A stretch of DNA of 64,000 nucleotides, from contig CAJWGN010000004.1 in the NCBI GenBank assembly GCA_913031035.1, positions 1 to 64,000 on the forward strand, in the 5' to 3' direction. This document shows, in pieces, positions 1 through 28,571 of the stretch. The translations under genes and the position numbers were made by a program. The notes beneath the pieces were generated by a model. The model worked only from the letters and a program-made list of their open reading frames with translations, had not been told where the DNA came from and ran no database searches. The stretch comes from an uncultured Gammaproteobacteria bacterium (lineage in GTDB: Bacteria > Pseudomonadota > Gammaproteobacteria > Pseudomonadales > Pseudohongiellaceae). Positions within the stretch are counted from its first letter, which is position 1. The number at the start of each line of letters is the position of its first letter.

Positions 1-1
1 A

Positions 2-430: not shown

Positions 431-440
431 AAAATAAATA

Positions 441-3063: not shown

Positions 3064-3064
3064 A

Positions 3065-6120: not shown

Positions 6121-6190
6121 GATAAAATATATTTTAGTTGGAAAACCAACGAATTACTAATTAAACGAAAGGGTAGAATTATCGATTAGA

Positions 6191-6541
6191 TCAGCAAATA
6201 GGTGGAGGAATATCTACTTCTTTACAGTTAGAAGTCTCAAATAAAATACAAGGATTGTGTAGATTTTTAAAATGTGTATCAAAGTTTGGGTTTGAGTAGG
6301 AAATAAAATAAAATTCATCTGAGTCTTCCGTCTCGGTTTCCCTCTCGTTATCCTCAGGCTCTTCGCTACTATCATGTTCAAAATCTTTTACAAATTCACA
6401 TGTATTGAAATTACTATCTAAATAAGAAGTATAAATATTAGACAAATAATTAGATAAGAATATAAATAGAAATGATAAGAACATAAGTCTTATAAATCTA
6501 AGATTTGGGATTAATTTATATGTTTTAAAATAATTTATCAT
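6191..6541 (-). CDS. Small hypothetical protein with one membrane segment and an acidic stretch
   Basis: A 116-residue protein with a basic start, one hydrophobic segment (residues about 17-33) and then a strongly acidic run (residues about 52-76, mostly D and E with S and T). Three cysteines lie in the C-terminal third, in the motifs N-P-C, N-C-K and P-P-P-I-C at the very end. The layout suggests an anchored or secreted small protein with an exposed acidic patch that could bind cations, but no family is recognised. It lies 70 bp upstream of the SulP transporter on the same strand; cotranscription is possible. Codon use matches its neighbours. Coding confidence rests on length, composition and the membrane segment only. 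Confidence 0.5.
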   Translation of the reverse strand: MINYFKTYKLIPNLRFIRLMFLSFLFIFLSNYLSNIYTSYLDSNFNTCEFVKDFEHDSSEEPEDNERETETEDSDEFYFISYSNPNFDTHFKNLHNPCILFETSNCKEVDIPPPIC

Positions 6542-6842
6542 TACTATTATTAATGTAATTTAACTTATTTAAATGTAAAATGTTACACTTTTAGATATTT
6601 TTAACAATATGCTCACTCTAAATTAACTGCATGTTGATGATAATTTCACATATCTAACACATAATTTAATTGATAAAATTTTAATATTTATTATATATTA
6701 TATGGAATAGTTTGCATAAGAAATAATATTTCACAATTAAATTAAAAATCTTCAATGTTTTTATCGTAAAACGATCAAAAAGGTTTTAAAAATTTCAATT
6801 TTAGATATTTACACGTGAAAGAGTTGATGCCGTTTAATAATT
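6542..6842. other. Intergenic region, very AT-rich
   Basis: About 300 bases of mostly A and T separate the small acidic protein from the pdeM stop codon. It contains several A/T runs that could hold promoters for the small gene and a terminator for the repair operon, but I see no convincing stem-loop, RNA or reading frame. Confidence 0.5.
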
Positions 6843-7490
6843 TTAAATAGAATTAAGTTGGTCTAATAGAAATATTCCATTTTTTGAAATTAAAATAATT
6901 TCATCTCCGTTGTTTTCCAAATGAATATTATGCGTGCCTGTAAATTCTCCAAATGCTGGGAAAATTATATTTTTTCTAGTGATGTAGAAACAAGGAAGCT
7001 TAATTTGTTGTTTCCCTTTTCCTTTTAATAAAAAAGAAGGATGAACATGGCCACATAAATTAAATATTTTTGATTCTATAAAAGGATAATGGGAAAAGTA
7101 AAATGGGGACTTATTCCAATTCTTTAAAATATCTAAATTTTTAATTTTGAAATTTATTGAATCGTGGTTTCCAATTATTAATTTAAATGCAAGTCTAGAG
7201 GATTTAAAAAACAACAACCATTCTTCCCATTCTAAATTATAATCCGAGTGAAACAAGTCCCCTAAAAAAACTACTTGTTTAGGATGATAATCCTCAATAG
7301 CAGATTTTAAAATATTTAAATTATTTAAAGCTGGAAAGGACGGTAGAGATATACCGTTTTTTCTAAAATGAGTTATTTTACCTATGTGTACATCACTTAA
7401 AATTAGAGAAGAGGTTTCTTTCCAAAAAACAACTTTTCTATAGTCAAAAGTAAGCGTTTGATTGTGGATTATTTTCTTTACACTTTTCAT
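6843..7490 (-). CDS. pdeM: Ligase-associated DNA damage response phosphoesterase PdeM
   Basis: A calcineurin-type metallophosphoesterase of 215 residues. The metal-binding motifs appear in order: L-S-D-V-H-I-G (D33, H35), F-L-G-D-L-F-H-S, I-G-N-H-D-S, F-S-H-Y-P and C-G-H-V-H-P. These identify the PdeM family, which in bacteria is encoded beside a DNA ligase, an Lhr-type helicase and an MBL-fold exonuclease and acts in nucleic-acid processing during DNA repair. All three partners are directly upstream here. The start codon overlaps the stop of the helicase gene by 4 bp (ATGA), so translation is coupled. It is the last gene of the operon. Confidence 0.9.
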   Translation of the reverse strand: MKSVKKIIHNQTLTFDYRKVVFWKETSSLILSDVHIGKITHFRKNGISLPSFPALNNLNILKSAIEDYHPKQVVFLGDLFHSDYNLEWEEWLLFFKSSRLAFKLIIGNHDSINFKIKNLDILKNWNKSPFYFSHYPFIESKIFNLCGHVHPSFLLKGKGKQQIKLPCFYITRKNIIFPAFGEFTGTHNIHLENNGDEIILISKNGIFLLDQLNSI

Positions 7491-9925
7491 TTGTATTCTT
7501 CCAACATTTTTTTAACACGATCTTCAAATTTTTCACTACTTAAATTCTCTCTCATTCTATCTGTAATTATAGGAAATGAAAATGGAGATGGATAAGGGAT
7601 TTTTTTCCATATTAGTTTTTGTCTGTTAATCCTTTTTAAAGCGGATCTTAGCCTACCCTCTTCTAACTGATATTCAAAAGTTTCATTAATAGATTGCTTG
7701 TAAAGTAAATTATCTGGTTCATAATCTCTAAAAACATCAAAAAGTAATTGACTTCCAGATTGTAAATCTTTGTTTCCTTTTCTTTTATTTGGCATCCCAG
7801 TAAAAACCAAACCAGAAATAACTGCTATATCTCTAAATTTCCTTCTTGCCATTTCTGAAGTATTAATACTATCGTTAAGGTCTTGATACAAATGAGAATC
7901 GTCCCATAAATTGTTATCTATAATATCTTGCACATCTAAAAACTCATCGCTTAACAGTTCAAATCCATAATCATTATAAGCCAAAGAAAATGTTATTGGT
8001 TTTAATAAGCTTACTCTATAGGCAATTAAGTGACTTAATGCTTCATGAATAAACCTACCCTCAAACGGGTAAAAAATAGTATGAAAGCCATCTTTAGTTT
8101 TAAAAGATTCAATTAGAAATTCATCAGGATTTGGAATAGCTGAAAATTCAAGTTGTTTTTTTGTAAGGTAATTTAATGGGTTTTCTGGATCAGACACTAA
8201 GGATTTATTTAAGTCATATAATTCTGCTCTTAGTAATTCACTCATATAAGAGCTAAAACTCATTCTTCCTCCCATCCAACTTACAATCTTTCCTTTTTTA
8301 GCTTTAGATTTCTTGACAATTACTTCCATATTTTTCATTTGAAAAATTTTATAGTATTGTCCTCCGAATAAAAAAACTTCGCCTTTACTTAATTTTGAAA
8401 CAAACCACTCCTCTATTTTACCAAGTCTTCTTCCATTAATAGATTTTAACTGTAAAAGCGCATCACTAACTATAGTTCCAATTTGAACCCTGTGTCGCAT
8501 AGCAGTTTTCCTACTAGTAACCTTAAAAAGACCATTTTCTAAAATATCTACTCTTTTGTATTCATCGTATGCTTGTAAACTTTGTGATCCAATAGTAATA
8601 TTTCTTAAAACCCACTCCCATTCTTCATTATTTATCATTGAAAAAGCATAAGTTTTTTTAATATAATTCAGGGTCTGCTTTGGATAGAATCCATCTGAAA
8701 CTGCTAAAGAAACTAAAAACTGAATGAGAACATCAAAACTTAACAAATAAGGATTTCTCTGCTCAACAAAATCTTTTTTAACTGCTTTATTTAATGCAGC
8801 AGACTCAATTAATTCAATCGCATGAGTTGGTAAAAAATATATTTTACTAACTTCATTAGGTCTATGCCCACTCCTTCCAGCTCTTTGAATAAATCTTGCA
8901 ACTCCTTTCGGTCCTCCTATTTGAATAATTGACTCTACCGGGTGAAAATCTACTCCTAAGTCTAGACTTGAAGTACAAACTACTACTTTTATTTTTTCAT
9001 TTCTAACAGCATTTTCTACCCATAGTCTAATATTTCTATCGATACTTCCATGATGCATGGCCATGTCTCCAGCCAGCTCAGGCATTTTCTCAAGAAGTTT
9101 CTGGTACCATAATTCACATTGAGATCTAGTATTGGTAAATATTAATGTTGATTTACTTTTTTTTATGATTGGTATTAATTGCGGAGTAAGATTAATTCCT
9201 AAATGTCCTCTCCAAGGCATATGCTTTATTTCTTTTGGAGCAATAGATTTAACCAGTATTTTTTTCTTAATGTTGGATTTAATTAATACGCCATTATTTT
9301 TGTTTTCAATATTCCCCAATAAAACATCTTTTGCTTGCTCAATATTTCCAATAGTAGCAGATATTCCCCAAATTGAGGTGCTTGAGTTAAAATACCTTAT
9401 TGCTGCTAAGCATAATTCTACTTGAACTCCTCTTTTAGAACCTATTAATTCATGCCACTCATCTACTACCACTGTTTTGAGAAATGAAAATTTTTTCTTC
9501 CAATCCTTTGACGAAATTATTAGCTGTAAACTCTCTGGTGTGGTTACTAAAATATTGGGAAGTTTATTACGCTGCTTATTTCTTTCTTTAGTTGAAGTAT
9601 CACCGTTTCTCACTCCTATAGTAAGATTTAAATTATTTTCATGTAAAAACTCTTCAATTGAAATTTTAATTTGTTGTGATAACGACCTAAGTGGAGTAAT
9701 CCATAAACAAATTAAATGATTGGTTTTTTTAGAATTGTCTAAAGTAGGCCAAACAATTGCTGGTATTAATGAAAGTGTTTTTCCAGATCCTGTAGGTGCA
9801 TTAATTAACCCTGACTGTCCTTTCAATACTTCCTTCCATGCTTCAGACTGAAACTTTTGTGGTTTCCAATCCTTAGAATCCATCCATTTTAAAATCCAAT
9901 TATTGAAATTCGTGTAATCACTCAT
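7487..9925 (-). CDS. Ligase-associated DNA damage response DEXH-box helicase (Lhr-like)
   Basis: An 812-residue superfamily 2 helicase. Walker A is A-P-T-G-S-G-K-T at residues 43-50, the Walker B box is D-E-W-H at 155-158, and motif VI is seen as Q-R-A-G-R-S-G-H-R. Motif III is S-A-T-I and motif Ia is T-P-L-R-S-L. The C-terminal half carries the Lhr-type winged-helix and core extensions that are usual in this roughly 800-residue 'ligase-associated' group. It should unwind DNA or RNA-DNA hybrids 3' to 5' during damage repair. It overlaps the ligase gene by 8 bp and the pdeM gene by 4 bp, so the four proteins are probably made together. Confidence 0.93.
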   Translation of the reverse strand: MSDYTNFNNWILKWMDSKDWKPQKFQSEAWKEVLKGQSGLINAPTGSGKTLSLIPAIVWPTLDNSKKTNHLICLWITPLRSLSQQIKISIEEFLHENNLNLTIGVRNGDTSTKERNKQRNKLPNILVTTPESLQLIISSKDWKKKFSFLKTVVVDEWHELIGSKRGVQVELCLAAIRYFNSSTSIWGISATIGNIEQAKDVLLGNIENKNNGVLIKSNIKKKILVKSIAPKEIKHMPWRGHLGINLTPQLIPIIKKSKSTLIFTNTRSQCELWYQKLLEKMPELAGDMAMHHGSIDRNIRLWVENAVRNEKIKVVVCTSSLDLGVDFHPVESIIQIGGPKGVARFIQRAGRSGHRPNEVSKIYFLPTHAIELIESAALNKAVKKDFVEQRNPYLLSFDVLIQFLVSLAVSDGFYPKQTLNYIKKTYAFSMINNEEWEWVLRNITIGSQSLQAYDEYKRVDILENGLFKVTSRKTAMRHRVQIGTIVSDALLQLKSINGRRLGKIEEWFVSKLSKGEVFLFGGQYYKIFQMKNMEVIVKKSKAKKGKIVSWMGGRMSFSSYMSELLRAELYDLNKSLVSDPENPLNYLTKKQLEFSAIPNPDEFLIESFKTKDGFHTIFYPFEGRFIHEALSHLIAYRVSLLKPITFSLAYNDYGFELLSDEFLDVQDIIDNNLWDDSHLYQDLNDSINTSEMARRKFRDIAVISGLVFTGMPNKRKGNKDLQSGSQLLFDVFRDYEPDNLLYKQSINETFEYQLEEGRLRSALKRINRQKLIWKKIPYPSPFSFPIITDRMRENLSSEKFEDRVKKMLEEYK

Positions 9926-11519
9926 GAATTAGACTTTTTAAATCATTGATAGAATTGGCATCTTTTATTGTTTTGTCTTGTCTCCACCTTAAAATTCTAG
10001 GAAATCTTACAGCAACACCAGATTTATGTCTTGAGGAATTTGCAATTCCTTCAAAAGCTATTTCAAATACTAATTTAGGTTGGACACTTCTTACTGGTCC
10101 AAATCTTTCCAAAGTATTTTTCTTTATAAAAGAATCTACTTTTTTAAACTCTTTATCTGTTAAACCAGAATAAGCTTTGGCAAAAGTTACTAATTCTCTA
10201 TCGCCATTATCATTTGTTTTCCAAAGGGCAAAAGTGTAGTCTGTAAATAAATTGGCTCTCCTACCATGTCCCCTCATAGCATATGTTAAAACAGCATCAA
10301 TTGTTAATGGGTCTACCTTCCACTTCCACCAATCTCCTTTTTTTCTACCAACTTTGTAAAATGCATTTATATTTTTAATCATCAATCCCTCGCTTTTATT
10401 AATCCTAGATTGACTGTGAGCTTCTTCTACATCATTCCAATTATTAAAAATATAATATTCAGAAAGTTGAAGCTTTTCATTATTAAGAAACAATACTAGT
10501 TTTTTTAGAGGTTTTCTTCTGTCTATATATTTCAGATTTCTTATATCTAAATCATTAGATTCTAATAAATCGTAAGCTTTTAAAATTACAGGGTTATTTT
10601 CAAGAGTAGTTTTTCCAACATTTTTACGCCCCAATCTTTTCTGTAAATCATTAAAAGAGCCTATTTTACCATTCTTAAATGGAAGTATTTCACCATCGAT
10701 AACAGTGCCATTACTTAAAAATTTTCCCATTTCTATAAGTTCAGGGAATTGTTTGCTAATTAGCTCTTCTCCTCTAGACCAAATCATTATTTCGTTGTTT
10801 CTTTTTATTAATTGAGCTCTTATCCCATCCCACTTATTTTCATAAACCCACTCTGAACAGGAGCCTAATTTTCTCAAATCTTGATCTAAAGGATTTGCTA
10901 AATAAAAAGGATAAGGTTTGTAAATGAAATCTTCTTTACTTGGTGATAAAATTAATTGGTTGTAAGTAGTTTCTTCCGGATCCCAGTCACCCATGATTTG
11001 ATAAGCTATTGTATCTTGGTCTATTCCAGTAACATTGGCTATAGATTTTGTCATTAACTTTTGACTAACACCAATACGAAAACCACCTGTAATAAGTTTA
11101 TTAAAGACAAATTTTGAATAATAATTTAAATGACTCCATCGATTTGTTAAATAGGCCTTTTGCTTTACTTCATCTAATTTTTTCAAATCTTTTATCTCTC
11201 CAATTAGTTGTGTTAAAGTTGGAGGTTCAATGCTTTGTTTAGATTCTGGAACTAAAAGTGCAATAGTTTCTGCTAGGTCGCCAACAATATGATAACTTTC
11301 TTCAAAAAGCCATAATGGTATTTCGGCTATTTCTGCTGCATAAACCCTTAAATCGGATGTTTTAACTGATCTTTTAGGTCTTTTAGAAGAAAATAAAGCA
11401 ATAGCCCAAACCTTATCTTCATCTGATGCACTGGAAAAAAACTTTTCTAACGCTTCAACTTTTAGATTGGTTTTATTGGTTTTGTCAATCTGCTCAACTA
11501 AGTCTGCAAAATCAAACAT
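9918..11519 (-). CDS. ATP-dependent DNA ligase of the ligase/Lhr repair operon
   Basis: A 533-residue ATP-dependent ligase. The nucleotidyltransferase motif I is K-W-D-G-I-R with the AMP-accepting lysine at residue 229. Motif III is seen as V-I-D-G-E-I-L, motif IV as S-E-G-L-M-I-K, and motif V as W-W-K-W-K. About 200 N-terminal residues form the DNA-binding domain and about 110 C-terminal residues form the OB-fold. Bacteria of this kind use an NAD-dependent ligase for replication, so this enzyme is taken to act in repair (family knowledge). It overlaps the exonuclease gene by 8 bp and the helicase gene by 8 bp. Confidence 0.93.
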   Translation of the reverse strand: MFDFADLVEQIDKTNKTNLKVEALEKFFSSASDEDKVWAIALFSSKRPKRSVKTSDLRVYAAEIAEIPLWLFEESYHIVGDLAETIALLVPESKQSIEPPTLTQLIGEIKDLKKLDEVKQKAYLTNRWSHLNYYSKFVFNKLITGGFRIGVSQKLMTKSIANVTGIDQDTIAYQIMGDWDPEETTYNQLILSPSKEDFIYKPYPFYLANPLDQDLRKLGSCSEWVYENKWDGIRAQLIKRNNEIMIWSRGEELISKQFPELIEMGKFLSNGTVIDGEILPFKNGKIGSFNDLQKRLGRKNVGKTTLENNPVILKAYDLLESNDLDIRNLKYIDRRKPLKKLVLFLNNEKLQLSEYYIFNNWNDVEEAHSQSRINKSEGLMIKNINAFYKVGRKKGDWWKWKVDPLTIDAVLTYAMRGHGRRANLFTDYTFALWKTNDNGDRELVTFAKAYSGLTDKEFKKVDSFIKKNTLERFGPVRSVQPKLVFEIAFEGIANSSRHKSGVAVRFPRILRWRQDKTIKDANSINDLKSLIHE

Positions 11520-12516
11520 TATTTCCTGTTATTTCTTCTTCTTCAAAAGGTGTGTTTTCTATAAAAGAATTGTACCCATTCTCGTTTAAATATTTGGAGA
11601 AAATATTCTTATAACCGTGAGTACAAACAATATTTTTTGCTTCGGTATCTTTAATAGTTTGAATTAAATCTTTCCAATCTACATGATCTGAGAGAACAAA
11701 TCCTCTGTCTATAGCTCTTCTTCTTCTAGCTCCCCTAAAAGTCATCCAACCACTCGATGATGAGGTGACATAAGGAACCATTTTTTTAAGCCATGAAGAA
11801 CCATGTGTACTAGGTGGTGCAATTACCAAATTACCAATCAGATCTTCTTTTTTAGTTTCTCTAGTAACTCTGTAAGTTTTGGGCAAATTTTTATAGCTTC
11901 TTATTACCTCATTTAAATTTTCTACAGCTCCATGGGTATATATTTTTCCAATATCAAGATTTAAATTGGCAATAAGACGTTGTGCTTTTCCTAAACTGTA
12001 AGCAAATATTACTGCTGTTTGATGGTTAGATTTACATTCTTCCCAAAAATCATTAATCTCATTAATTACGATCTCTTGTTTTTCCCAATTAAAAGCAGGC
12101 AATCCGAAAGTACATTCGGTTATAAACGTATTGCACTTAACAGGTTCAAAAGGTGTTGAAATACCATCATTTTCTCTTTTATAATCTCCACTATATACCC
12201 AAACATCTCCTTTATATTCCACTCTTACTTGAGAAGAGCCAATGATATGTCCTGCAGGATGTAAGGAAAATTGTACTCCGTTAATAGTGAATTTCTCTCC
12301 CCACTCTTTGCTTTCTATATTTATATTTCCTAATCTATGTTTTACAATAGGAACACTGTTAGGATGGGTTAAATAGTGTTTATGACCATTTTTAGAATGG
12401 TCTGCATGAGCATGGGAAATTATAACCTTATCTACCGGTCTCCAAGCATCCATGTAAATTTTAGCTATAGGACAATAAATACCATTTTGATTAAATACCA
12501 ATAGAGGTTTTTTCAT
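11512..12516 (-). CDS. Ligase-associated DNA damage response exonuclease (MBL/beta-CASP fold)
   Basis: A 334-residue metallo-beta-lactamase-fold nuclease. The metal motif is S-H-A-H-A-D-H-S with H35, H37, D39 and H40. Further signatures are P-A-G-H-I-I-G-S-S-Q, Y-S-G-D-Y-K, the E-C-T-F-G motif and the late L-S-D-H-V-D-W and C-T-H-G-Y motifs of the beta-CASP group (SNM1/CPSF73-like). It is the first gene of the four-gene repair operon and its end overlaps the ligase start by 8 bp, so the ligase ribosome site lies in its coding sequence. It should trim DNA ends before ligation. Upstream lies an AT-rich region of about 100 bases and then a tRNA on the same strand. Confidence 0.92.
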   Translation of the reverse strand: MKKPLLVFNQNGIYCPIAKIYMDAWRPVDKVIISHAHADHSKNGHKHYLTHPNSVPIVKHRLGNINIESKEWGEKFTINGVQFSLHPAGHIIGSSQVRVEYKGDVWVYSGDYKRENDGISTPFEPVKCNTFITECTFGLPAFNWEKQEIVINEINDFWEECKSNHQTAVIFAYSLGKAQRLIANLNLDIGKIYTHGAVENLNEVIRSYKNLPKTYRVTRETKKEDLIGNLVIAPPSTHGSSWLKKMVPYVTSSSSGWMTFRGARRRRAIDRGFVLSDHVDWKDLIQTIKDTEAKNIVCTHGYKNIFSKYLNENGYNSFIENTPFEEEEITGNNV

Positions 12517-12621
12517 TAACTAAATTTATACTTTTTTTAAAAAAAGCTTAATAATCGTTTAATATTTAAATAAAACCTGGACCTGAAAGTATTGTAATAA
12601 AAATTGAGAAATAATTTAAAG

Positions 12622-12695
12622 TGGCGCGGGGGGGAATCGAACCCCCGACCTCAGGGTTATGAATCCTGCGCTCTAACCGTCTGAGCTACCGCGCC
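12622..12695 (-). tRNA. tRNA-Met (anticodon CAT)
   Basis: On the minus strand the 7-bp acceptor stem is perfect (G-G-C-G-C-G-G with C-C-G-C-G-C-C), followed by a D arm starting T-A-G-C-T-C-A-G, an anticodon loop T-T-C-A-T-A-A and a T arm with G-G-T-T-C-G-A-T-T-C-C. The anticodon is CAT. The last pair of the anticodon stem is an A-C mismatch. The 3' CCA is not encoded. The standard acceptor pair G1-C72 argues against an initiator tRNA, so this is probably elongator Met; a tRNA-Ile2 with modified C34 cannot be excluded from sequence alone. Confidence 0.93.
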
Positions 12696-12847
12696 AATTA
12701 AGGCGACAAATATAGATAAATTTAGAAAATTAGTACCCAATAAATAATTCTATTATTAAATAATAATTTGAGGATTTGTTCTGTTATATAAACATTGTAT
12801 TTTATTTTTTCTATATTGGCCGTAATAAGTAAAGAATACACATCGAC

Positions 12848-13183
12848 ATGAGCAAAACAAAATCAGAATTCGAATATATTATAAATACATCCCCTATTAT
12901 TTTATTTACCTGTTTGAGTACAGCAAGTGGCTTATCTGAATGGTTTTGCGACGATGTTAATCTCAAAGACAATAAGTTTACTTTTTTCTGGGATGGCAGT
13001 GAAGAAACTGCTACTCAAAAAAATGTAAAAAAAGGAGAATCTGTTAAATTTCAATGGGATGATGATGAAGGAGAAGATTACTATTTTGAAATGGCCATAA
13101 GAATTGATGACCTAACTAAAGAAGTTGGCCAAATTGCTAACATGACAGACCGCTTTTTCTTTGTATTCAAGAAGCCCGAATAG
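12848..13183 (+). pseudogene. START-like domain gene, broken at the junction between two genomes
   Basis: Residues 1 to about 93 match the short START-like domain protein common in flavobacteria: T-A-S-G-L-S-E-W-F near residue 27, then F-x-F-F-W-D-G-S-E-E, V-K-F-Q-W and a closing L-T-K-E-V. Family members normally continue about 35 residues more with an acidic segment and a W-x-x-Q-I helix. Here the frame instead runs into G-Q-I-A-N-M-T-D-R-F-F-F-V-F-K-K-P-E and stops, and the surrounding base composition changes. I therefore read the last 18 codons as foreign, probably the 3' end of a gammaproteobacterial gene that happens to be in frame. The protein as written probably does not exist. Confidence 0.65.
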
Positions 13184-13204
13184 GATAAGAAGCAGCAAGA
13201 AACG

Positions 13205-13240
13205 AAAAGCTGGGCTCTTGTTGAGGCCAGCTTTTTTTTT
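13205..13240 (+). terminator. Rho-independent terminator
   Basis: Arms 13205-13213 and 13227-13235 are complementary over nine pairs (A-A-A-A-G-C-T-G-G with C-C-A-G-C-T-T-T-T). One G-G mismatch is followed by three more pairs (CTC/GAG) and a 5-base loop, and a T run follows. It lies 22 bp after the stop codon at 13183 and probably ended the gammaproteobacterial gene whose 3' end was joined to the START-like gene. Confidence 0.8.
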
Positions 13241-13659
13241 GAGCGAAATTAATGTCGATCTATTTGTTATGCGAGCCAGCAAGATTAGGTGGTATTTGCC
13301 GCGCGTGCGTGATGGCCTAGGCCATAGTTTGTCGTCTATTCAAGAGAGCGCGAATAAAGAGTAAGGAAACTCGCCGTTAGTAAATAGCGATGTGCATGAA
13401 GACGATTTTGAGCAGGTATTTGGCGGGTTTAAGGAATTTAAAAAATCGAGCATTCAAATTATCCTTACTAAGTGAGGTGGCGTGACATTTTAATAAGATG
13501 ATCAGTTACTTAAACCGTTGACCAAAATGCTTTTTATTTATATGGTTATGAGGCGATGTTGTTGAAAGTCGCGTTTTAACCATAGACTTTCCAGCAATTC
13601 AAAGGCTGACGGCGCCCTCTGGTATCACAAATCAACTATTTTTTAGTAAGGAGAGAGTA
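13241..13659. other. Intergenic region before the redoxin-cytochrome fusion gene
   Basis: No supported gene is seen. Short open stretches have no recognisable homology. The last 15 bases hold a strong ribosome site, T-A-A-G-G-A-G-A-G-A, just upstream of the ATG at 13660. The promoter should lie here but I cannot place it. Confidence 0.5.
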
Positions 13660-15372
13660 ATGAAAACAATAAGCTTTCTAAAAACATCTGTTTTGTCGCT
13701 TCTATTGGTACCAGCCATCAGTAATTCCGCTGAAAGGGTCGGTGATTTTTCGCTGCTAGACCACGACGGTTACCACCACAGCATGAGTTGGTACGATGAC
13801 CATCAAGCGATCGCTTTGTTAGTTCAGGCCAACGGTGATGAAAGTGCTGCAGCTTCAATGCCGGCGTTTGAGCGCCTGAAAGCTGAGTACGATAGCCAAG
13901 GCATCGAATTCATGATGATTAACCCTCTAGGTAAAGGTGACCGTGAGGCAGTTCAGGCTCAGGTGGTTCAATATGGCGTGGACACGCCGGTCCTTATGGA
14001 CGATACCAGACTTATTTCTGAGGCATTGGGCATCGCTCATATTGGTGAGGTTTTATTGTTCGATCCAAAATCTTTCACTGTTGAGTATCGCGGTGCGATC
14101 GCTGGGGTTGAATCAGCGATTAAAGATATCCTCGCCGGAAATGATGTAATCGCTGCAGAAGTGCCTTCAGTGGGAACCGCTGTATCTTACGTAACCACCG
14201 AAGCCCCCTCATACACAGCTGACATTGCACCGGTCTTAGCAGAACAATGTGCCTCTTGCCACCGAGAGGGCGGAGTTGCGCCCTTTGCCATGGACAGCCA
14301 CGCCATGGTTCAAGGTTGGTCACCCATGATTCGTGAAGTGTTGATGACTCGTCGTATGCCCCCTGGGCAGATTGATGGTCACATTGGCGAATTTATTAAT
14401 GATCGTCTCGTGGATAACCAAGACGTACGCAACATTATTGCCTGGGTTGAAGCCGGTGCAATTAAAGATGGAGATGCTGATCCGCTATCCTCACTGGTAT
14501 GGCCTGAGTCGAGGTGGGCATTTGGTGAGCCAGACATGGTTCTCGATATCCCGGCCACTACTGTTCCTCCCACAGGCAACGGCGTTTTTGTCAATGTTGA
14601 GGTAGCCTTTGACATGGAGAGCGACCGTTGGGTGCGCGGTAGCCAAATTATAGCGGGTGATCGTTCCGTACTTCACCACACAGTAAACAGGTTAGACTTT
14701 CCTGAAGAAATCGGGAAAAAAGCTGGCCGATTCTTAGGGCGAGGTCACCCAGATAAGGCCAGTATTACAGCCTATATCCCAGGAGATACGCCAGACCTAG
14801 CGCCACCCAATACCGGCGGTCTGCTTAAGGCAGGGTCAGTCCTAACGTTAAATATGCACTACACACCCAATGGCCGCGAAACAGTCGATAATAGTCAGTT
14901 AGGTGTCTGGTTCTACCCTGAGGGTGAAGTTCCTGAGGAGAGAATGTCAGGACAATGCGCCTGTGTGTTCCCTAACACTTGGACTACCATCCCAGCTTAT
15001 GATCCTGCATTCGAGCAGTCGGCCACGATCACAATTACGGACGATTCCAACATCCACAGTTTCCTTCCTCATATGCACTTTCGCGGTAAGCGGATGCGCT
15101 TCTATGCTGACTACCCAAATGGCACTAGCGAGGAATTAATTAATGTCGCAAAGTACAATTACAATTGGCAGCTCAGTTACACCTACGAAGAGCCGAAATT
15201 CATGCCTGCAGGAACAAAAATTACGGCAGTAGCGGCGTGGGATAATTCAGCACAAAATCCAGCGAACCCAAATCCAGCACGCAATGTTGACTGGGGGAAT
15301 GAAAGCTGGGATGAGATGTTTTTCGGTGCGGTTCGGTGGAAAGTAATAGACCAATCTGGTGGCAAAGACTAA
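13660..15372 (+). CDS. Exported redoxin / c-haem / copper-monooxygenase-like fusion protein
   Basis: Signal peptide to about residue 24. Residues about 25-160 resemble a peroxiredoxin/redoxin-fold domain (F-S-L-L-D-H-D-G-Y start), but no catalytic Cys is present in the usual active-site position, so it may be structural. A haem-binding C197-A-S-C200-H201 follows in a P-V-L-x-x-x-C-A-S-C-H context with a later M-P-P as a likely axial-Met region. Residues about 290-560 resemble the PHM/DBH copper type II monooxygenase fold: V-L-H-H (H339, H340), L-N-M-H-Y (H400) and L-P-H-M-H-F-R-G (H471, H473) align with the CuH and CuM histidines. A clear CuM methionine was not placed. Substrate unknown. A paralogue without the redoxin domain lies at 41066-42433. 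Confidence 0.8.
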   Translation: MKTISFLKTSVLSLLLVPAISNSAERVGDFSLLDHDGYHHSMSWYDDHQAIALLVQANGDESAAASMPAFERLKAEYDSQGIEFMMINPLGKGDREAVQAQVVQYGVDTPVLMDDTRLISEALGIAHIGEVLLFDPKSFTVEYRGAIAGVESAIKDILAGNDVIAAEVPSVGTAVSYVTTEAPSYTADIAPVLAEQCASCHREGGVAPFAMDSHAMVQGWSPMIREVLMTRRMPPGQIDGHIGEFINDRLVDNQDVRNIIAWVEAGAIKDGDADPLSSLVWPESRWAFGEPDMVLDIPATTVPPTGNGVFVNVEVAFDMESDRWVRGSQIIAGDRSVLHHTVNRLDFPEEIGKKAGRFLGRGHPDKASITAYIPGDTPDLAPPNTGGLLKAGSVLTLNMHYTPNGRETVDNSQLGVWFYPEGEVPEERMSGQCACVFPNTWTTIPAYDPAFEQSATITITDDSNIHSFLPHMHFRGKRMRFYADYPNGTSEELINVAKYNYNWQLSYTYEEPKFMPAGTKITAVAAWDNSAQNPANPNPARNVDWGNESWDEMFFGAVRWKVIDQSGGKD

Positions 15373-15513
15373 GCGATCACTTAGCTTGTAGTCCTAGGTA
15401 AAACGCGGTTGCTCGGCACAGTGAGAAAATTTTTCACGAGGCATGGGGTGGCTACCCTTAGGTGCTGAGATCCTAGGTCAGTGCGAGGGGAGGATCAATA
15501 AGAGGTGATGTAA

Positions 15514-16911
15514 ATGACGGCACCTGATCGCTCAGAAAGCACAGCTCAGGCCAGCGCCGATGAGAGTGCTATTTCCCCCTATCCCCGCGAGGCCTATAGC
15601 TGGTACGTGGTTGGCATCCTAATGATCGTCTATGTATTTTCCTTCATGGATAGGCAGATACTAGCCTTGTTAGTAGACCCGATCAAAGCAGATCTAGATA
15701 TTTCTGACACCCAAATTAGTTATCTGGGAGGCTTTGCATTTGCGCTGTTTTATACTTTGTTTGGCATTCCTATTGCGCGTATGGCAGACAGCAAAAATCG
15801 AAAAGTAATCATATCGGCAGGCTTGGCCACATGGAGCTTATTTACCATGCTATGTGGCACAGCAAATCGTTTCTTGTCATTCGCGCTTTTCCGTATGGGT
15901 GTGGGGGTTGGCGAAGCCACCTTATCGCCTTCTGCCTATTCGATGATTTCAGATATGTTTCGGCCGGAAAGAATGGCGATTGCCATCAGCATTTATTCCG
16001 CCGGTATTTATATTGGTACTGGGCTGTCTAACATCTTCGGCGGCTTGGTCATTGGCTATGCCGAGTCTATGGATAATCTGAGCCTACCGATTATCGGTGC
16101 GGTAGAGTCCTGGCAATATGTTTTTTTTGCCGTTGGTTTTCCCGGCTTGTTATTCACCTTGGTGATGCTCTCAGTTAAAGAGCCAGTCCGACGCGTTAGC
16201 ATTGGTGCCGGTGAATCTCAGCAGAAATCAATCCCGTTAGATCAGGTCGTGGACTATATCCGCGCCAATCAAAAAACGTTCCTTTATCACAACGTGGGCT
16301 TTGCTCTGTGCTCTTTCATTTCCTACGGTGGGGCCTATTGGATTCCCTCTTACCTGATTCGAATTCATGAGTTGACGCGCCAAGAAGCTGGTCTTTATTA
16401 CGGCAGCATTGTGATGGTATTTGGTACTGCTGGTATTATTTTTGGCGGTTGGCTATCCGATAGATTGTCGCAGAAAGGGCAAGTGGACTCAAAAATTAAA
16501 GTGGGTATGCTGGCTGCGATGCTGCATATTCCCTTTGGTATTGTTTATCCGTTGATGCCTGATGCCAACTGGGCTTTGTTGCTGCTGTGTCCTGCGGTGT
16601 TCACCGCAGCGATGCCGTTCGGTGTTGCTCCGGCGGCTATTCAACAAATGATGCCTGCTAGAATGCGTGCCCAAGGGGCCGCAGTTTATTTGTTCGTAAT
16701 CAATTTGATTGGTTTGGGCTTAGGGCCAACTGCCGTGGCTTGGTTCACTGACTATGTTTATGGTGACCCTAACAAAGTGCACATGTCATTATTGTGGGTG
16801 AGTACTCTTTTTGGAGTAATAGCAGTATTTTTGCTTTGGAAAGCATCCGAGCATTTTCAAAAAAGTTTAGATTATCTAAGGGTATACGAAGAAAAAGTGC
16901 GGGGTTCATAA
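15514..16911 (+). CDS. MFS transporter
   Basis: A 465-residue protein with about 12 hydrophobic segments. The signature loop between segments 2 and 3 is seen as G-I-P-I-A-R-M-A-D-S-K-N-R-K, and D-R-Q-I-L-A-L in the first segment resembles spinster-like and aromatic-acid permeases. The middle cytoplasmic loop lies near residues 225-250. A good ribosome site (A-G-A-G-G-T-G-A) precedes the ATG. It follows the copper-monooxygenase-like fusion by 141 bp on the same strand and ends convergently with the MarR gene, so it may import or export the compound that the neighbouring oxidases handle. No substrate can be named. Confidence 0.85.
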   Translation: MTAPDRSESTAQASADESAISPYPREAYSWYVVGILMIVYVFSFMDRQILALLVDPIKADLDISDTQISYLGGFAFALFYTLFGIPIARMADSKNRKVIISAGLATWSLFTMLCGTANRFLSFALFRMGVGVGEATLSPSAYSMISDMFRPERMAIAISIYSAGIYIGTGLSNIFGGLVIGYAESMDNLSLPIIGAVESWQYVFFAVGFPGLLFTLVMLSVKEPVRRVSIGAGESQQKSIPLDQVVDYIRANQKTFLYHNVGFALCSFISYGGAYWIPSYLIRIHELTRQEAGLYYGSIVMVFGTAGIIFGGWLSDRLSQKGQVDSKIKVGMLAAMLHIPFGIVYPLMPDANWALLLLCPAVFTAAMPFGVAPAAIQQMMPARMRAQGAAVYLFVINLIGLGLGPTAVAWFTDYVYGDPNKVHMSLLWVSTLFGVIAVFLLWKASEHFQKSLDYLRVYEEKVRGS

Positions 16912-16963
16912 GCTGCACGGCCTCTTTTGTGCCCCTTGGATTTTGTAATTGAACACTGACCAC

Positions 16964-17446
16964 TTAATTCTCTGCTAACTTTCCCGCATGGTCATAAAGT
17001 CGATCTACCAGCACACTAAATAGCTCTTGTTCCTCTTTATTAAAGCAAGCAAGTAACTCCTGTTCCATTTTATAAGCTACCGGCACAATTTCCTCATAAA
17101 CAGACAATCCTGTCTCAGTCAGGTTCAACATCGAGCGCCGCTTATCAGAGGGATTAAACTCTCTGGCAACTAGATGCCGACTGAGCAATTTAGTGATCGC
17201 TCTGCTAAGAATTGATTTTTCTATCTGGGTTTTAAAAGACACTTCATCAGCTGAAACGCCAGGATACTCACCTAACACCGCCATGATTCTCCACTCGGTA
17301 ATTGAGAGCGCAAACTTATCGCTGTAGGTTTGAGCGATCATGCTGCTGACTTTGTTAGAAAGTATAGAAAGTCTATATGGCAGGTAGCGCTCTAGGTTAA
17401 GAATACTGGATTCGGCGGGCTGGTTTTTCTTGTTTGATTGGTTCAT
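16964..17446 (-). CDS. MarR-family transcriptional regulator
   Basis: A winged-helix regulator of 160 residues. I choose the Met at 17446 because translation from the upstream Met at 17503 would read through both operator palindromes and because M-N-Q-S-N-K-K begins the conserved region. The helix-turn-helix and wing lie in W-R-I-M-A-V-L-G-E-Y-P through L-S-R-A-I-T-K-L-L and D-K-R-R-S-M-L-N-L-T-E-T-G, typical of MarR. It is divergent from the HPPD-type dioxygenase gene, and two palindromes lie between them. A ligand-relieved repressor of the dioxygenase and itself is the simplest inference. Confidence 0.9.
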   Translation of the reverse strand: MNQSNKKNQPAESSILNLERYLPYRLSILSNKVSSMIAQTYSDKFALSITEWRIMAVLGEYPGVSADEVSFKTQIEKSILSRAITKLLSRHLVAREFNPSDKRRSMLNLTETGLSVYEEIVPVAYKMEQELLACFNKEEQELFSVLVDRLYDHAGKLAEN

Positions 17447-17464
17447 GACTCTAGTTTGATTGAC

Positions 17465-17486
17465 ATTAGTTGCAATAGCAACTAAT
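17465..17486. promoter_or_regulatory. Operator palindrome 1, probably MarR site
   Basis: Perfect inverted repeat with 9-bp arms and a 4-bp spacer: A-T-T-A-G-T-T-G-C, AATA, G-C-A-A-C-T-A-A-T. It sits between the divergent MarR and dioxygenase genes. The centre is 22 bp, two helical turns, from palindrome 2, which fits two dimers bound on the same face of the DNA. Confidence 0.85.
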
Positions 17487-17487
17487 G

Positions 17488-17507
17488 TTAGTTGCGTTAG
17501 CAACTAA
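17488..17507. promoter_or_regulatory. Operator palindrome 2, probably MarR site
   Basis: Perfect inverted repeat with 8-bp arms and a 4-bp spacer: T-T-A-G-T-T-G-C, GTTA, G-C-A-A-C-T-A-A. It shares the core T-T-A-G-T-T-G-C with palindrome 1 and lies just upstream of the ribosome site of the dioxygenase gene, so occupancy would block transcription of that gene. Confidence 0.85.
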
Positions 17508-17532
17508 TTTATTTCGACGCTCGGAGAGTTAC

Positions 17533-18615
17533 ATGCTGGATACTATTAATAACCCAATGGGCCTAGATGGCTTTGAATTTGTGGAGTTTTCTGCGCCGGA
17601 GCGAGGAATCCTTGAGCCTGTCTTCGTCATGCTTGGATTCACCCATGTTGCCAATCACCGCTCTAAGGATGTCTCTTTGTTTCGTCAAGGTGAAATTAAC
17701 TTTATTATTAATTATGAGCGTGACTGCTACGCCGGTTACTTCTGTGACGAGCATGGGCCGTCTGCCTGCGGCATGGCGTTTCGCGTGAGGGATTCGCAAC
17801 AGGCTTACTCGCGAGCACTGGAGTTAGGCGCCCAGCCTATGGACATTGAAACAGGCCCAATGGAGTTACGGCTTCCCGCAATAAAGGGGATTGGCGGTGC
17901 GGCACTTTACCTTATCGACCGCTACAGCGAGGGCAATTCAATCTATGATATCGACTTTGTATTTATCGAAGGAGTCGATCGTCATCCGCAGGGCTGTGGA
18001 TTCAATCTAATCGATCATCTGACCCATAATGTGTACCGGGGGCGGATGGATTACTGGACAGGCTTTTACGAGAAAATTTTCAATTTTAGAGAGGTACGCT
18101 TTTTTGATATCAAAGGTGAATACACCGGCTTGTTGTCGCGGGCCATGGCTGCACCGGATGGGAAAATTCGAATTCCCTTAAACGAAGAGGCAACCCAAGG
18201 CGGACAAATAGAGGAATTTCTGATGGCCTACAACGGAGAGGGAATACAGCATATTGCGTTTTCCACCGACGACCTCTTTGAAAGCTGGGATCAGCTGAAA
18301 AAGCTGGGTATCCCGTTTATGACTGCGCCGCCAGAAACCTACTATGAAATGCTTGAAGAGCGCCTTCCAAATCATGGTGAGCCAATCGATGCGCTAAAGT
18401 GCAGAGGTATTTTATTGGATGGCTCTACTCATCAAGGCGATCCGCGTTTGCTTCTGCAAATATTTTCCGGAGCTCTTATTGGCCCAGTTTTTTTCGAATT
18501 TATTCAACGTAAAAAAGATGAGGGTTTTGGCGAAGGAAATTTCAAAGCGCTGTTTGAATCAATAGAGCGTGATCAATTAAATCGTGGTGGTGTCAATCTT
18601 CAACAGGCTAGTTAG
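17533..18615 (+). CDS. hppD: 4-hydroxyphenylpyruvate dioxygenase (HPPD)
   Basis: The enzyme converts 4-hydroxyphenylpyruvate to homogentisate in tyrosine catabolism. From the ATG at 17533, which has the ribosome site C-G-G-A-G-A-G, the protein is 360 residues, the normal length for proteobacterial HPPD. The iron ligands are in place: H162 in D-H-L-T-H, H240 in I-Q-H-I-A-F and E322 in F-F-E-F-I-Q-R. An upstream in-frame ATG at 17485 would overlap the operators and is not used here. It is divergent from MarR and followed 9 bp later by a VOC enzyme. No homogentisate dioxygenase is seen in the window, so a related 2-oxo acid dioxygenase is possible. Confidence 0.9.
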
Positions 18616-18624
18616 GAGAACGCT

Positions 18625-19137
18625 ATGAACCTTCAAGGTATTCATCATGTGGCTTATCGCTGCAAGGATGCCAAGCAAACCGTTGCTTTTTACCGTGATA
18701 TTATGGGCATGGATTTTCAGCTGGCGATTGCCGAAGATGAGGTGCCGTCCACCGGCGAGCCAGATCCCTACATGCATATTTTTATGGATGCAGGTAATGG
18801 CAACGTACTGGCTTTCTTTGAAATCCCAAACTCTCCCGCCATGGGAAGAGATCCAAATACCCCCAGTTGGGTTCAACATATTGCATTCAAGGTGGAGGAC
18901 ATGGACGCATTACTCGCGGCCAAGAAACGTCTGGATACCGCTGGAATCGATGTGCTCGGCCCGGTGGATCACACCATATTTAAATCCATTTATTTTTTCG
19001 ACCCAAATGGTCATCGGCTCGAACTTGCAGTCAACACGGCCAAGCCCGGGGTGTTGGATAAACTGCACGACATTGCCGAGGACATGATCGAAGAATGGAG
19101 CGAAACCAAGCGTGCCCCTCAAGCAAGATCGCGTTAA
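18625..19137 (+). CDS. VOC-family metalloenzyme (glyoxalase/dioxygenase type)
   Basis: A 170-residue vicinal-oxygen-chelate protein with two beta-alpha-beta-beta-beta units. All four metal ligands of a glyoxalase-like site are visible: H8 (I-H-H-V-A), E66 (F-F-E-I-P), H85 (V-Q-H-I-A-F) and E133 (R-L-E-L-A). It starts 9 bp after the dioxygenase stop with a T-A-G-G-A-G-A ribosome site, so it is cotranscribed and presumably under the MarR operators. It may act on a product of the upstream enzyme, but VOC proteins cover isomerases, lyases and dioxygenases and the reaction cannot be fixed. It converges with the DPP-IV gene 10 bp downstream. Confidence 0.85.
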   Translation: MNLQGIHHVAYRCKDAKQTVAFYRDIMGMDFQLAIAEDEVPSTGEPDPYMHIFMDAGNGNVLAFFEIPNSPAMGRDPNTPSWVQHIAFKVEDMDALLAAKKRLDTAGIDVLGPVDHTIFKSIYFFDPNGHRLELAVNTAKPGVLDKLHDIAEDMIEEWSETKRAPQARSR

Positions 19138-19147
19138 ATTATCTCGA

Positions 19148-21418
19148 TTATTTTGGCCCTGCGGGTAAGTGCTTTAAAAAATATTCTGTTCTCAGTGTTC
19201 CAAGATGCAGGGTTGTTCCATCAGCACTGCCGCTAATGCGATGATTGCGATTAGGGTAGACCATTAGATCAAACTGTTTGTTCAGGGAGACGAGTTTGTT
19301 AATGAGTCGCTCTGTTCCTTGGTAGTGAACATTGTCATCGCCTGTGCCGTGAACTAAGAGGAGTTTCCCTGCCAAACCCTCGGCATGATTAATTGCTTTA
19401 GTTTCTTCATATTGCAAGGCGTCTTCGGGCAAGACTCCTGAGTAGCGCTCTTGATAAATTGAATCATAAAGTGTGATGTCAGGCACCGGGGCTTGGGAGA
19501 CGCCGACATGATACATTTCCGGATAGCGAAACATGAGGTGTAGGGTTGATGTGCCGCCACCGGAGTGGCCCCAAATTCCTACTCGCTGAGTATCTAAATA
19601 AGGCTTCTGTATCATCAGCGCCTTGGCGCCAAGCATCTGGTCTTTCATATTGGTTGTGCCCAGTTCTCGGTAGATCGACTTGCGCCATTCTCTGCCTTTG
19701 GGCGCTGGTTGGCCGCGATTGTCCAGGGTGGCAGTGACATAGCCTTTTTGACTCATCATGATATGCCAAAGGTTTCTGCTGCTCCATTGATCCCTAGCAG
19801 TTTGCCCTGCAGGTTCGCCATAAACATAAAAGATCACGGGATACTTTTTGCTGGGATCAAAATCCGGAGGCAAGCGCAGAAAGCCTTCCATAGTGATTCC
19901 TTCTTCACTGGTGACTTCAAAGAACTCACTAGTTCCATAATCCAGCGCAGCAAGTGTTTTTTGCACTTGGCCGTTGTCAGTGAAAAGCTGCAGGCGCTCA
20001 TGGCCTGGTAGGCTCACCAGATCAATTGTTGTTGGCGTGTCGCGGGTCGAATACCAATGCACCGCATAGCGTGAGTCTTTGGCCACTAGGTAGCGATGGT
20101 CTCCCGGTTGGTCTGCAGGGGTCATTCGCTCGAGCTCTCCGCTGCCATCGAGAGGTGCGCGGTAGAGATAACGTCTTTGTGGATCATCAGGGGAGGCGAT
20201 GAAATACACATAACCATCTTCTGCATCGGCATGAAGTATGGAGATAGCATCATAACTTCCGGGAGTTAGCAGTGTTTCGCTGCGGCCGTCGCGACTTACA
20301 AGAAAAATCTGACGCCAGCCATTTTTATCACTTACCCACAGAAAAGACCGCCCTTCGTCGAACCACTGGAAATCAGTTACCGGATCTAGCCAAGCTTGAT
20401 CTGTGTCGGTGAGGATATTTTGAATTTTTCCGGTGGATGCGTTAGCTAGCTCTAATTTATTAATATTTTGCCGTCTGTTTAACTGTTGAATAACCAGCTC
20501 ATCGGAATTTTCCGCCCATTCCATGAAAACGGGGTAGTGCTGGCGAGGGTCACCGTCAAGTTGTATCCAGGTGGTGGGGCCGCCTTTAGCATCAAGCACG
20601 CCGAGTCGCGCAGACGAGTTAGTCTCGCCAACCTTAGGGTAGGGAAACTGACTCAGCTTTGGGTATAGAGTGTCTGTATTATTAATTAGGGTGAAGGCTT
20701 CCACGCCTTCAGAGTCTAATTGCCAGTAGGCAATTCGACTTCCGTCCGGACTCCAACGAAATCCATTACGCAGCCCAAACTCTTCTTCGTAAACCCAGTC
20801 GAAAGTACCATTGATGAGGTTGGTGGAACCGTCATTGGTAATCTGTGTCACCTTGCTTGAGGAGAGGTCTTCTACGTAGATATTGTTTAACTGAACATAG
20901 GCGATACGGGTGTCATCAGGTGAGAAGGTGGCAAACATTAAACTCGATGCTGGAAAGTCACTACCTATCTGAGACAGCGCGCCGCTGACTAAATCGAGCA
21001 CCCAATAGTCGCCTCGAGAATTCGTACGCCATACCCGTTGAGAATTTGTATAGATCAGCACTTTGCTGCCATCGGCGGACCAGCTGTAGTTTTCAATCTT
21101 TAGGGTCTCATCGCTCATTGCTGGCTGCAGTTGGGATGCAGTGACTAAAATTTCACGATCGTTAGTCTTTGGGTCGTACCGAACGATGTCTTTTCTATCT
21201 TGAACTGCGTTTGAATCTTCCAGCAAGGTATAGCCGCTGCCATCGCTCAGCCACCGTGCGGGGCCAAAACTCTCAAGATCAAATTCTTCTGAGTTAAATA
21301 GTCGCTCTAGACTGAGCTGTGACTGCTCAGTGCTTTCTTGTGCTGTTGCTATAGTGGCGAACAGCGCTAAAAAAGAAGCTGGCATCAGCGATGAGAGAAG
21401 AGAGCCAAACGGTTTCAT
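19148..21418 (-). CDS. Dipeptidyl peptidase IV (S9B family), exported
   Basis: A 756-residue secreted serine peptidase that removes dipeptides, usually X-Pro, from peptide N-termini. A signal peptide ends near residue 27. The beta-propeller half carries the S9B double-glutamate motif D-W-V-Y-E-E-E-F, which binds the substrate amino terminus. The catalytic triad is S619 in G-H-S-G-G-G, D694 in G-T-G-D-D-N-V-H and H726 in N-R-N-H-R. The usual nucleophile elbow is G-W-S-Y-G-G, so G-H-S-G-G-G is a variant but keeps the serine. It likely serves peptide scavenging in the periplasm. Converges with the VOC gene. Confidence 0.92.
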   Translation of the reverse strand: MKPFGSLLSSLMPASFLALFATIATAQESTEQSQLSLERLFNSEEFDLESFGPARWLSDGSGYTLLEDSNAVQDRKDIVRYDPKTNDREILVTASQLQPAMSDETLKIENYSWSADGSKVLIYTNSQRVWRTNSRGDYWVLDLVSGALSQIGSDFPASSLMFATFSPDDTRIAYVQLNNIYVEDLSSSKVTQITNDGSTNLINGTFDWVYEEEFGLRNGFRWSPDGSRIAYWQLDSEGVEAFTLINNTDTLYPKLSQFPYPKVGETNSSARLGVLDAKGGPTTWIQLDGDPRQHYPVFMEWAENSDELVIQQLNRRQNINKLELANASTGKIQNILTDTDQAWLDPVTDFQWFDEGRSFLWVSDKNGWRQIFLVSRDGRSETLLTPGSYDAISILHADAEDGYVYFIASPDDPQRRYLYRAPLDGSGELERMTPADQPGDHRYLVAKDSRYAVHWYSTRDTPTTIDLVSLPGHERLQLFTDNGQVQKTLAALDYGTSEFFEVTSEEGITMEGFLRLPPDFDPSKKYPVIFYVYGEPAGQTARDQWSSRNLWHIMMSQKGYVTATLDNRGQPAPKGREWRKSIYRELGTTNMKDQMLGAKALMIQKPYLDTQRVGIWGHSGGGTSTLHLMFRYPEMYHVGVSQAPVPDITLYDSIYQERYSGVLPEDALQYEETKAINHAEGLAGKLLLVHGTGDDNVHYQGTERLINKLVSLNKQFDLMVYPNRNHRISGSADGTTLHLGTLRTEYFLKHLPAGPK

Positions 21419-21721
21419 GAGTACACCTTAGTTTAGTTGCAGTAAGAAAAGCAGAGCAATGGTTTTAAGCTGCTTAAAGATAAAGCCCGCTTCACAGGAG
21501 GTCAATTAGAATAAAAGGGCGAGGGGGTCAAGCCCTGCAAAGGTTAAGTCAGTGATAGGGGTTTCAGCGATGCGTGTCTGAAGCCTAAGTGAGCGTACGT
21601 TGAAAACCACCGGCATGCATGCCCCGCAAATATGCTGACTCTGGGTAAAAGAAAGCGGTAATTCAGTGCAAACGACGTTATATTTAGTTTGAACTCATTA
21701 TTCTTTTGTTGGAATTTCACT
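21419..21721. other. Divergent intergenic region
   Basis: About 300 bases between the divergent DPP-IV and MBL-hydrolase genes. Promoters for both should be here. I see no clear operator, RNA or reading frame. Confidence 0.5.
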
Positions 21722-22711
21722 ATGAAATCAGTCCCAGCTCGCATTCATCATCTTGTTTTTCTCGTTAGCGTAATCGCGGCTTCATTCTTTTCGGCCAACG
21801 TGTTTGCTCAAAGGGCTGTGGCTGGAGATGTTAGCGTGACCGTTTTATCGACAAATTTAGCCAATGGGGCTGCTATCGGAGAATGGGGGTTGTCAGCTCT
21901 AGTTGAAGTTGACGGCAACTGTATCTTATTCGACGCAGGGCGCTATCCGGATACGGTGATTCGAAATGCAGCGGTTCTAAATGTTGACTTATCCTGCGTG
22001 ACGGACGTGGTATTGAGTCATTTTCACTTTGACCACACCACCGGCTTATTGCCGCTAATAGAAAATATACGCGGCAAAAACCCACAAGCTATTCAGCGTG
22101 TTCATGTTGCTTCAGGCTTTTTCTCGTCTCGCCAGCGAGCCAGTGGTGATGATGCCGAAATGAATCAGATGCTTGCCCTGCGGGAAACCTTTGACGGGCA
22201 GGGTGTAGAGTTTTTAGTGCATAGCCAGGCTACAGAAATTTATCCGGCGGTGTGGGTTTCCGGTCCGGTAGAGCGCCGGCACCCAGAGCAAAACTACTCT
22301 GCTGCTTTAAAAGTCGACTTTGAAGGCGATTGGGTTCGAGACTTCGTTCCCGAGAGTCAGGCGTTGGTTATAAGAACAGCTGAGGGACCAATTGTCCTGC
22401 TTGGCTGTGGCCATTCTGGTGTGGTGAATGCTTTGGACCATATTCAAGACACTATTCATGATGGGCCTGTGTATGCCTTGATGGGTGGCTTGCATTTATT
22501 CGCAGCCGATGACGAGACTTTAGATTGGACGGCGGCAAAGCTATTGGAAATTGGTGTAAAAAACCTAATGGCTGGGCATTGCACGGGCATAGAGCCCATG
22601 ATGAGACTGCGTGCGGGATTAAATCTAAGCAGGAAAACGGCTGTTGTCGGGGCGGTGGGTTCAAGATTTGTCCTAGGGGAGGGCATCCATCCGACCGTCA
22701 TAGCTATGTAG
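21722..22711 (+). CDS. Exported MBL-fold metallohydrolase
   Basis: The Met at 21722 gives a clean signal peptide ending N-V-F-A-Q at residue 30 and is preferred over an upstream Met at 21689. The protein has the metal motif S-H-F-H-F-D-H (H100, H102, D104, H105), then G-C-G-H-S-G, G-G-L-H-L-F and G-H-C-T-G. These later motifs resemble the methanopterin-pathway-like MBL group (dihydropterin-dependent annotation is common), which in bacteria are poorly characterised hydrolases. Export to the periplasm makes a pterin synthase role unlikely. It stands alone, divergent from DPP-IV. Confidence 0.85.
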   Translation: MKSVPARIHHLVFLVSVIAASFFSANVFAQRAVAGDVSVTVLSTNLANGAAIGEWGLSALVEVDGNCILFDAGRYPDTVIRNAAVLNVDLSCVTDVVLSHFHFDHTTGLLPLIENIRGKNPQAIQRVHVASGFFSSRQRASGDDAEMNQMLALRETFDGQGVEFLVHSQATEIYPAVWVSGPVERRHPEQNYSAALKVDFEGDWVRDFVPESQALVIRTAEGPIVLLGCGHSGVVNALDHIQDTIHDGPVYALMGGLHLFAADDETLDWTAAKLLEIGVKNLMAGHCTGIEPMMRLRAGLNLSRKTAVVGAVGSRFVLGEGIHPTVIAM

Positions 22712-22779
22712 GGGCATGCTGAACCAATTAGAAAATGATTAACTAAGTCATAGCCACTGAGCTGACACTGTTGCTTTCG

Positions 22780-23572: not shown

Positions 23573-23669
23573 CCCCCTAATGTCCACACTGGTTTTTGAT
23601 GATCACATTTTTAAAACCTGAGGCAGGGGTGAAATTGCTCATTTCACCTCCCACCGAGGCTTTTAAATA

Positions 23670-25873: not shown

Positions 25874-25911
25874 GGCAAACCTTAGTTAGATGTTAGTGTA
25901 GGCGCTGCCGG

Positions 25912-26175: not shown

Positions 26176-26297
26176 TCCAACCTCTTCGCAAGCTTAACCT
26201 TGCTAATAAAGTCATCGAAGTACGTCAATGACGGTAACAGATAATACAGGACGAATTTTACAGCCGCACTCTAAAGATCGGTTTTAAATGCTGGAGT

Positions 26298-28443: not shown

Positions 28444-28571
28444 ATGCGATTGAAGGTGGTTTTAGTACAGACGATTCGTCAATCAATTTAATCAAGTCGC
28501 CAATTCAGAAGTTGAACAAATGAACGACTAAAAAGTCGATTTAGGTTTAGACGCAAACGAGAATAATAATA

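Follow-up and report, generated by a model that had tools for sequence, protein, structure and literature searches.

The window analyzed here (bases 1 to 64,000 of contig C4, which is 66,422 bp long) joins parts of two unrelated genomes at positions 13105 to 13127. The contig belongs to a 3.96-Mb MAG (307 contigs) that is 92.5% complete and 1.8% contaminated, and whose organism we refer to as the host. Positions 1 to 13104 represent a Flavobacteriales (Bacteroidota) stretch that forms the end of the contig, leaving one of its two borders visible, while the sequence to the right of the join is that of the host. Judging from sequence comparisons, the join is very probably a metagenome misassembly of the short-word (de Bruijn) type and not a biological event. 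The first-pass annotation had located a boundary between a Bacteroidota and a gammaproteobacterial genome within 13100 to 13200 and had favored an assembly chimera over lateral integration; the points at which homology ends and starts now place it at 13105 to 13127, and the preference for a chimera gains strong, if indirect, support from an apparently shared word, the contig-end position, and the lack of any relative with the join among the genomes searched.

The left piece encodes proteins with T9SS sorting tails, a sulfate-permease-family protein, a tRNA-Met, ligase-associated DNA-damage-response genes (PdeM, DEXH helicase, ATP ligase, and exonuclease), and the 5' part of a START_2 gene. When genome contigs were scanned with the exonuclease gene (11512 to 12516) as the query, three loci with 93% protein identity were recovered, in Bacteroidetes bacterium MED-G20 (L049), an uncultured Flavobacteriales bacterium (L050), and Flavobacteriales bacterium BS301-5m-G31 (L051). 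At the DNA level, L049 is continuous with the window over 6871 to 13127 (86.5% identity) and L051 aligns over 7533 to 13127 (89.4% identity), and in both the homology stops at 13127. A further genome of the same Flavobacteriales family (L212) matches 6865 to 13127 at 88% and 1776 to 6608 at 78% with the order kept, and window positions 2 to 1150 have 71 to 72% identity in three genomes (G040, G058, and G039). Identity to Flavobacteriales contigs is 86 to 89% overall for 6.9 to 13.1 kb and 67 to 79% farther left, which bears out the earlier reading of the upstream T9SS and ligase-associated genes as those of a Bacteroidota member. On these alignments and family matches, the left piece is an ordinary native Flavobacteriales block, including its tRNA-Met (12621 to 12695, reverse strand). 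In one relative (G057, C30:17766-19051), the ligase-associated repair block beside the START gene seems to be missing, judged from distance alone (∼1.3 kb compared to 6.3 kb for window positions 6590 to 12848).

Within the 3.96-Mb bin, two T9SS sorting tails were found, both on C4 (1863 to 2072 and 2869 to 3051); of 14 control genomes, two (Deinobacterium chartae and Bacteroides ihuae) also match this family, one of them above the cutoff. A single START_2 domain was found in the bin, at the join, and the same family matches 1 of the 14 control genomes (Bacteroides ihuae). The permease-like gene that lies 3' of START in L051 has a best match of 21% in the bin.

Sequence composition changes at the same place. 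In 1-kb steps, GC content ranges from 0.246 to 0.334 over the first 13 bins (ending at 13000), is 0.420 in the bin holding the join, and lies between 0.363 and 0.517 over the remaining 50 bins, which begin at 14001. A maximum-likelihood estimate within 1 to 40000 puts the GC change point at 13126. Tetranucleotide z-scores of 1 to 13127 correlate at 0.69 with four Flavobacteriales reference stretches and at 0.43 with twelve stretches from other contigs of the bin, the former value being favored by two of the four references (L202 and L203) that contain the homologous region; for 13128 to 26254, the correlations are 0.34 and 0.75, respectively. In 4-kb pieces, which are noisier, all three that end by 12 kb resemble Flavobacteriales more and the 13 from 12001 resemble the bin more, the piece at 12001 to 16000 including the join. 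Composition on the host side is uniform up to contig position 66422 (L201). The contrast between an AT-rich upstream and a less AT-rich downstream sequence, seen in the first look at these letters, thus holds in GC bins, change point, and tetranucleotide profile alike. Two of the checks proposed at that time, the composition profile along the window and the comparison of each side with other genomes, have been run; both profiles change at the join, and the comparisons yielded Flavobacteriales on the left and the genus of the bin on the right. A local GC dip (0.363) occurs at 24001 to 25000, near a 239-amino-acid (aa) ORF without a Pfam match (23670 to 24389).

The crossover itself can be read closely. 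Over 13062 to 13104, 13105 to 13127, and 13128 to 13170, identity to the window is 82%, 83%, and 22% (about chance) in 18 Flavobacteriales rows, while in 11 host-genus rows it is 25%, 82%, and 78%. The Flavobacteriales rows are 18 of 20 loci listed, excluding L179 and L180, whose matches end before the join; the host rows are L182 to L188, L003, L131, L132, and L134, excluding L129, L130, and L133 (the same places as L003, L188, and L187) as well as more distant rows with 30 to 56% identity over the tail. The nearest relatives thus switch sharply at one point, with a different lineage on each side, as in an assembly chimera. Positions 13106 to 13126 translate to DDLTKEV, a motif that is present in L049 and L051, where it is followed by ALIVTDF, and that occurs exactly or nearly so in the same frame in the host genus (DDLTKEVGEIPNMTDRFF in L132 and L133 and DDLSQEVGQ in L003). 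The exact 22-mer of 13106 to 13127 occurs in a Flavobacteriales relative (L163), where the START gene that contains it is intact (125 residues) and has downstream of it the permease-like gene also seen in L049 and L051. Among the fetched host-genus loci, no copy of the exact 22-mer was found besides that of the window itself, and identity over 13105 to 13127 is 74 to 91% in the 11 rows.

The ORF that spans the join (12848 to 13183, forward strand, 111 aa) runs in frame from the N-terminal part of a START_2 domain, up to residue 93, into the C-terminal tail of a methyltransferase-like host protein. Its residues 2 to 94 match positions 3 to 94 of the 126-position PF19569 START_2 profile (86.9 bits), whereas the intact START homolog in L051 reaches position 125; the ORF therefore shares the N-terminal part of this family and falls short of the full-length domain (∼126 positions), with the C-terminal quarter swapped for an unrelated tail. 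In L049 and L051 the START gene runs to 125 residues (counted from the same ATG in L049), and it is followed by what we take from the sequences to be a permease-like gene, two glycosyltransferase-like genes, and a RibBA-like gene. The earlier observation that the START-like protein loses its C terminus at about residue 93 proved exact, with V93 ending at 13126. A frameshift or sequencing error truncating START was rejected, as the sequence past 13127 matches another gene family, and a true domain fusion was rejected in view of its absence from all homologs seen on either side. The ORF is not a real protein.

The tail (13128 to 13183, forward strand) is the 3' end of a host gene lacking its 5' part, with 85.9% identity to L182 (genome G132) from 13106 onward. 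A paralog of the tail gene in the bin itself (C71:17403-18194) has 83.3% identity over 13105 to 13176, and relatives of this paralog occur in G012, G015, G011, G004, and G014 at 62 to 72% protein identity. Compared to the C71 protein, the ORF retains a tail in which the 26 C-terminal residues are 73% identical and lacks ∼90% of the protein, from the N terminus. We call the gene methyltransferase-like tentatively; the sole PDB sequence match of the protein is a putative type 11 methyltransferase (E value, 0.07), and there was no Pfam or NCBIfam match at an E value of 0.01. A terminator-like hairpin with a T run, read by eye, follows at 13205 to 13240 (forward strand).

From 13660 to 64000 the window is host genome by its composition and its matches to the host genus, beginning with an AhpC/TSA-domain protein (13660 to 15372) for which G015 has a counterpart with 81% identity. 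Positions 13128 to 33127 have matches in all five host-genus genomes searched, albeit scattered ones. By such matches, the sequence right of the join is that of the genus of the bin, a host that is probably proteobacterial; of the earlier description of this side as gammaproteobacterial, the part that stands is that it belongs to another lineage than the left piece, while the class was not established by these comparisons. When two host proteins were compared to plasmid records, the best match of one was to Azoarcus (73%) and that of the other was to Parabacteroides (48.5%), followed by Pseudoalteromonas (44 to 45%), a mixed outcome that settles nothing on the class of the host. Positions 13191 to 13660, which separate the 13660 gene from the tail, had no match in the fetched loci or in the genus, and in all three loci listed for relatives of the 13660 gene (L030 of G015, L031 of G011, and L002 on C31 of the bin) a different gene lies upstream, which is presumably inositol-monophosphatase-like and not methyltransferase-like. 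Continuity of the host side across 13184 to 13660 is therefore unconfirmed by synteny, and this speaks mildly against simple continuity. A second join just right of 13183 was considered and dropped; composition alone speaks for a host side free of further joins.

Two sequences on the host side recur widely in the host genus. The AhpC/TSA-domain protein has 12 to 38 matching stretches in each of 24 same-genus genomes searched, compared to a single stretch in total across 13 genomes from elsewhere in the order, a striking family expansion, with some genes yielding two stretches. At 28335 to 28370, within an ORF of 350 aa that has no Pfam match, a stretch of 30 to 40 bp (encoding ...YEYACHEGNYALGGILGG...) recurs with 85 to 97% identity at many places in four of five host-genus genomes searched (G011, G012, G015, and G132); it perhaps encodes the conserved C-terminal motif of a protein family that has expanded in this lineage.

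No other genome searched was found to carry the join. In the Flavobacteriales family, 31 of 39 genomes match window positions 12840 to 13240, with matches ending at 13125 to 13127 in 21, earlier in 8, at 13130 in one, and at 13135 in one, such that no alignment in the 39 genomes extends past 13135. In the host genus, 20 of 84 genomes match 12840 to 13660, counting that of the window itself, a lower bound given that G011, G014, and G015 carry the tail yet count as misses; homology in the other 19 starts at 13102 to 13106 in 14 and at 13119 to 13121 in 5, and in none of the 83 other same-genus genomes does it extend left of 13102. In both searches, only part of the first-look candidates were scored per genome. 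Absence of the join from the independent genomes of either lineage that were searched is likewise as expected of an assembly chimera. The exact junction 55-mer also had no match in IMG/VR, which is weak evidence, as it is hardly expected in a viral collection.

We propose that the two parents were organisms of one sample, namely, a member of the Flavobacteriales near FRAM18_bin196 (MED-G20) and BS301-5m-G31 and the host of the bin. Both genomes would contain the word (T)GATGACCTAACTAAAGAAGTTG, in one inside the START_2 gene and in the other inside the 3' end of the methyltransferase-like gene. The assembler would have entered along the Flavobacteriales genome, passed the shared word, and left along the host genome, and the binner would then have assigned the 66-kb contig, 80% of which is host, to the bin of the host. 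That the host strain itself carries the exact word would follow from relatives that are 74 to 91% identical, since its uninterrupted gene is not in the bin: the C71 protein has eight matches there, of which only C71 (the query itself) is close, the others being C97 (40% identical), the tail on C4 (the junction itself), and five at 24 to 35%. The missing partner edges were presumably of low coverage or cut. By extrapolation from 218 shared 14-mers, genomes of such kinds with sizes of 1.8 and 3.96 Mb are expected to share 2.2 to 7.8 words of 22 bases and 0.6 to 2.3 words of 23 bases by chance. Many current assemblers finish with a k larger than such a word of 22 to 23 bp, which counts against a misassembly. 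The join also keeps the reading frame; a translocation under selection for an open frame might do so too, but no selection is needed for this, since two genes that share a coding word in one frame would yield the same.

Similar artifacts have been described. According to PMC8172020, assembly from k-mers can yield paths that match no real genome, and in the mock-community tests reported there the chimeric sequences were always at contig ends and joined two closely related genomes. The contig examined here likewise joins two genomes, in all probability falsely, has its foreign part as the contig end, and sits in an otherwise ordinary MAG; it differs from the mock chimeras described in that source in that its parents are unrelated and have only a short word in common.

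The same short word could also have guided recombination in a cell, and the fused frame is open, as would be compatible with the real integration of a Flavobacteriales chromosomal fragment of ≥13 kb into the host by illegitimate recombination at 22 to 23 bp of microhomology. Several observations speak against this, and we regard it as extremely unlikely. The recipient gene would be reduced to its last few codons, the left piece has the composition of the donor and is an ordinary Flavobacteriales block, it lies at a contig end with one boundary visible, and the join was not found among the other genomes searched. No integrase, transposase, or other mobile-element protein was found among nine left-piece proteins (74 to 13183) scanned against Pfam or NCBIfam, the ORFs at 74 to 430 and 6191 to 6541 having been scanned against PADLOC only, and six left-piece proteins had no match to defense systems in PADLOC. 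Ten families of direct repeats of ≥18 nucleotides (nt) occur in 1 to 14000, none with a copy right of 12575 or touching the join, and repeats at the join were accordingly dropped as an explanation; a flanking repeat at the other end of the left piece, which lies off the contig, would escape view. The first-pass statement that no integrase, insertion sequence, direct repeat, or tRNA-adjacent att pair is visible thus holds for mobility genes in these nine proteins and for ≥18-nt repeats at the join within 1 to 14000. A tRNA-Met does lie nearby but is native to the Flavobacteriales block. Integration beside this tRNA was rejected, as the tRNA is also present within the corresponding aligned block of three Flavobacteriales loci. 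It is barely credible that the host recently acquired a Flavobacteriales chromosomal segment of ≥13 kb that carries an entire ligase-associated DNA-repair block, through microhomology-guided recombination and without a mobile element.

The crossing would have taken place in software rather than in a cell or, with much lower probability, in the tube: a ligation or amplification molecule may have joined the two DNAs before assembly. Amplified DNA is known to contain artifacts of template switching at short homologies, and the sequence by itself cannot separate such a molecule from a graph error. A single chimeric molecule would normally not dominate a well-covered assembly, however, and the chance supply of shared 22-mers already explains the join, which makes a laboratory origin very unlikely. 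If true, it would have the same consequence as the misassembly that we favor.

This contig provides a clean worked example of such a join, in that both parent genes have intact relatives and the breakpoint can therefore be read to within the shared word. Annotation of the window should be split at 13105 to 13127, and no argument from gene context should be carried across it. For the biology of the host, this means that the T9SS-tailed proteins, the sulfate-permease-family protein, and the ligase-associated repair genes encoded in 1 to 13104 should not be credited to it.
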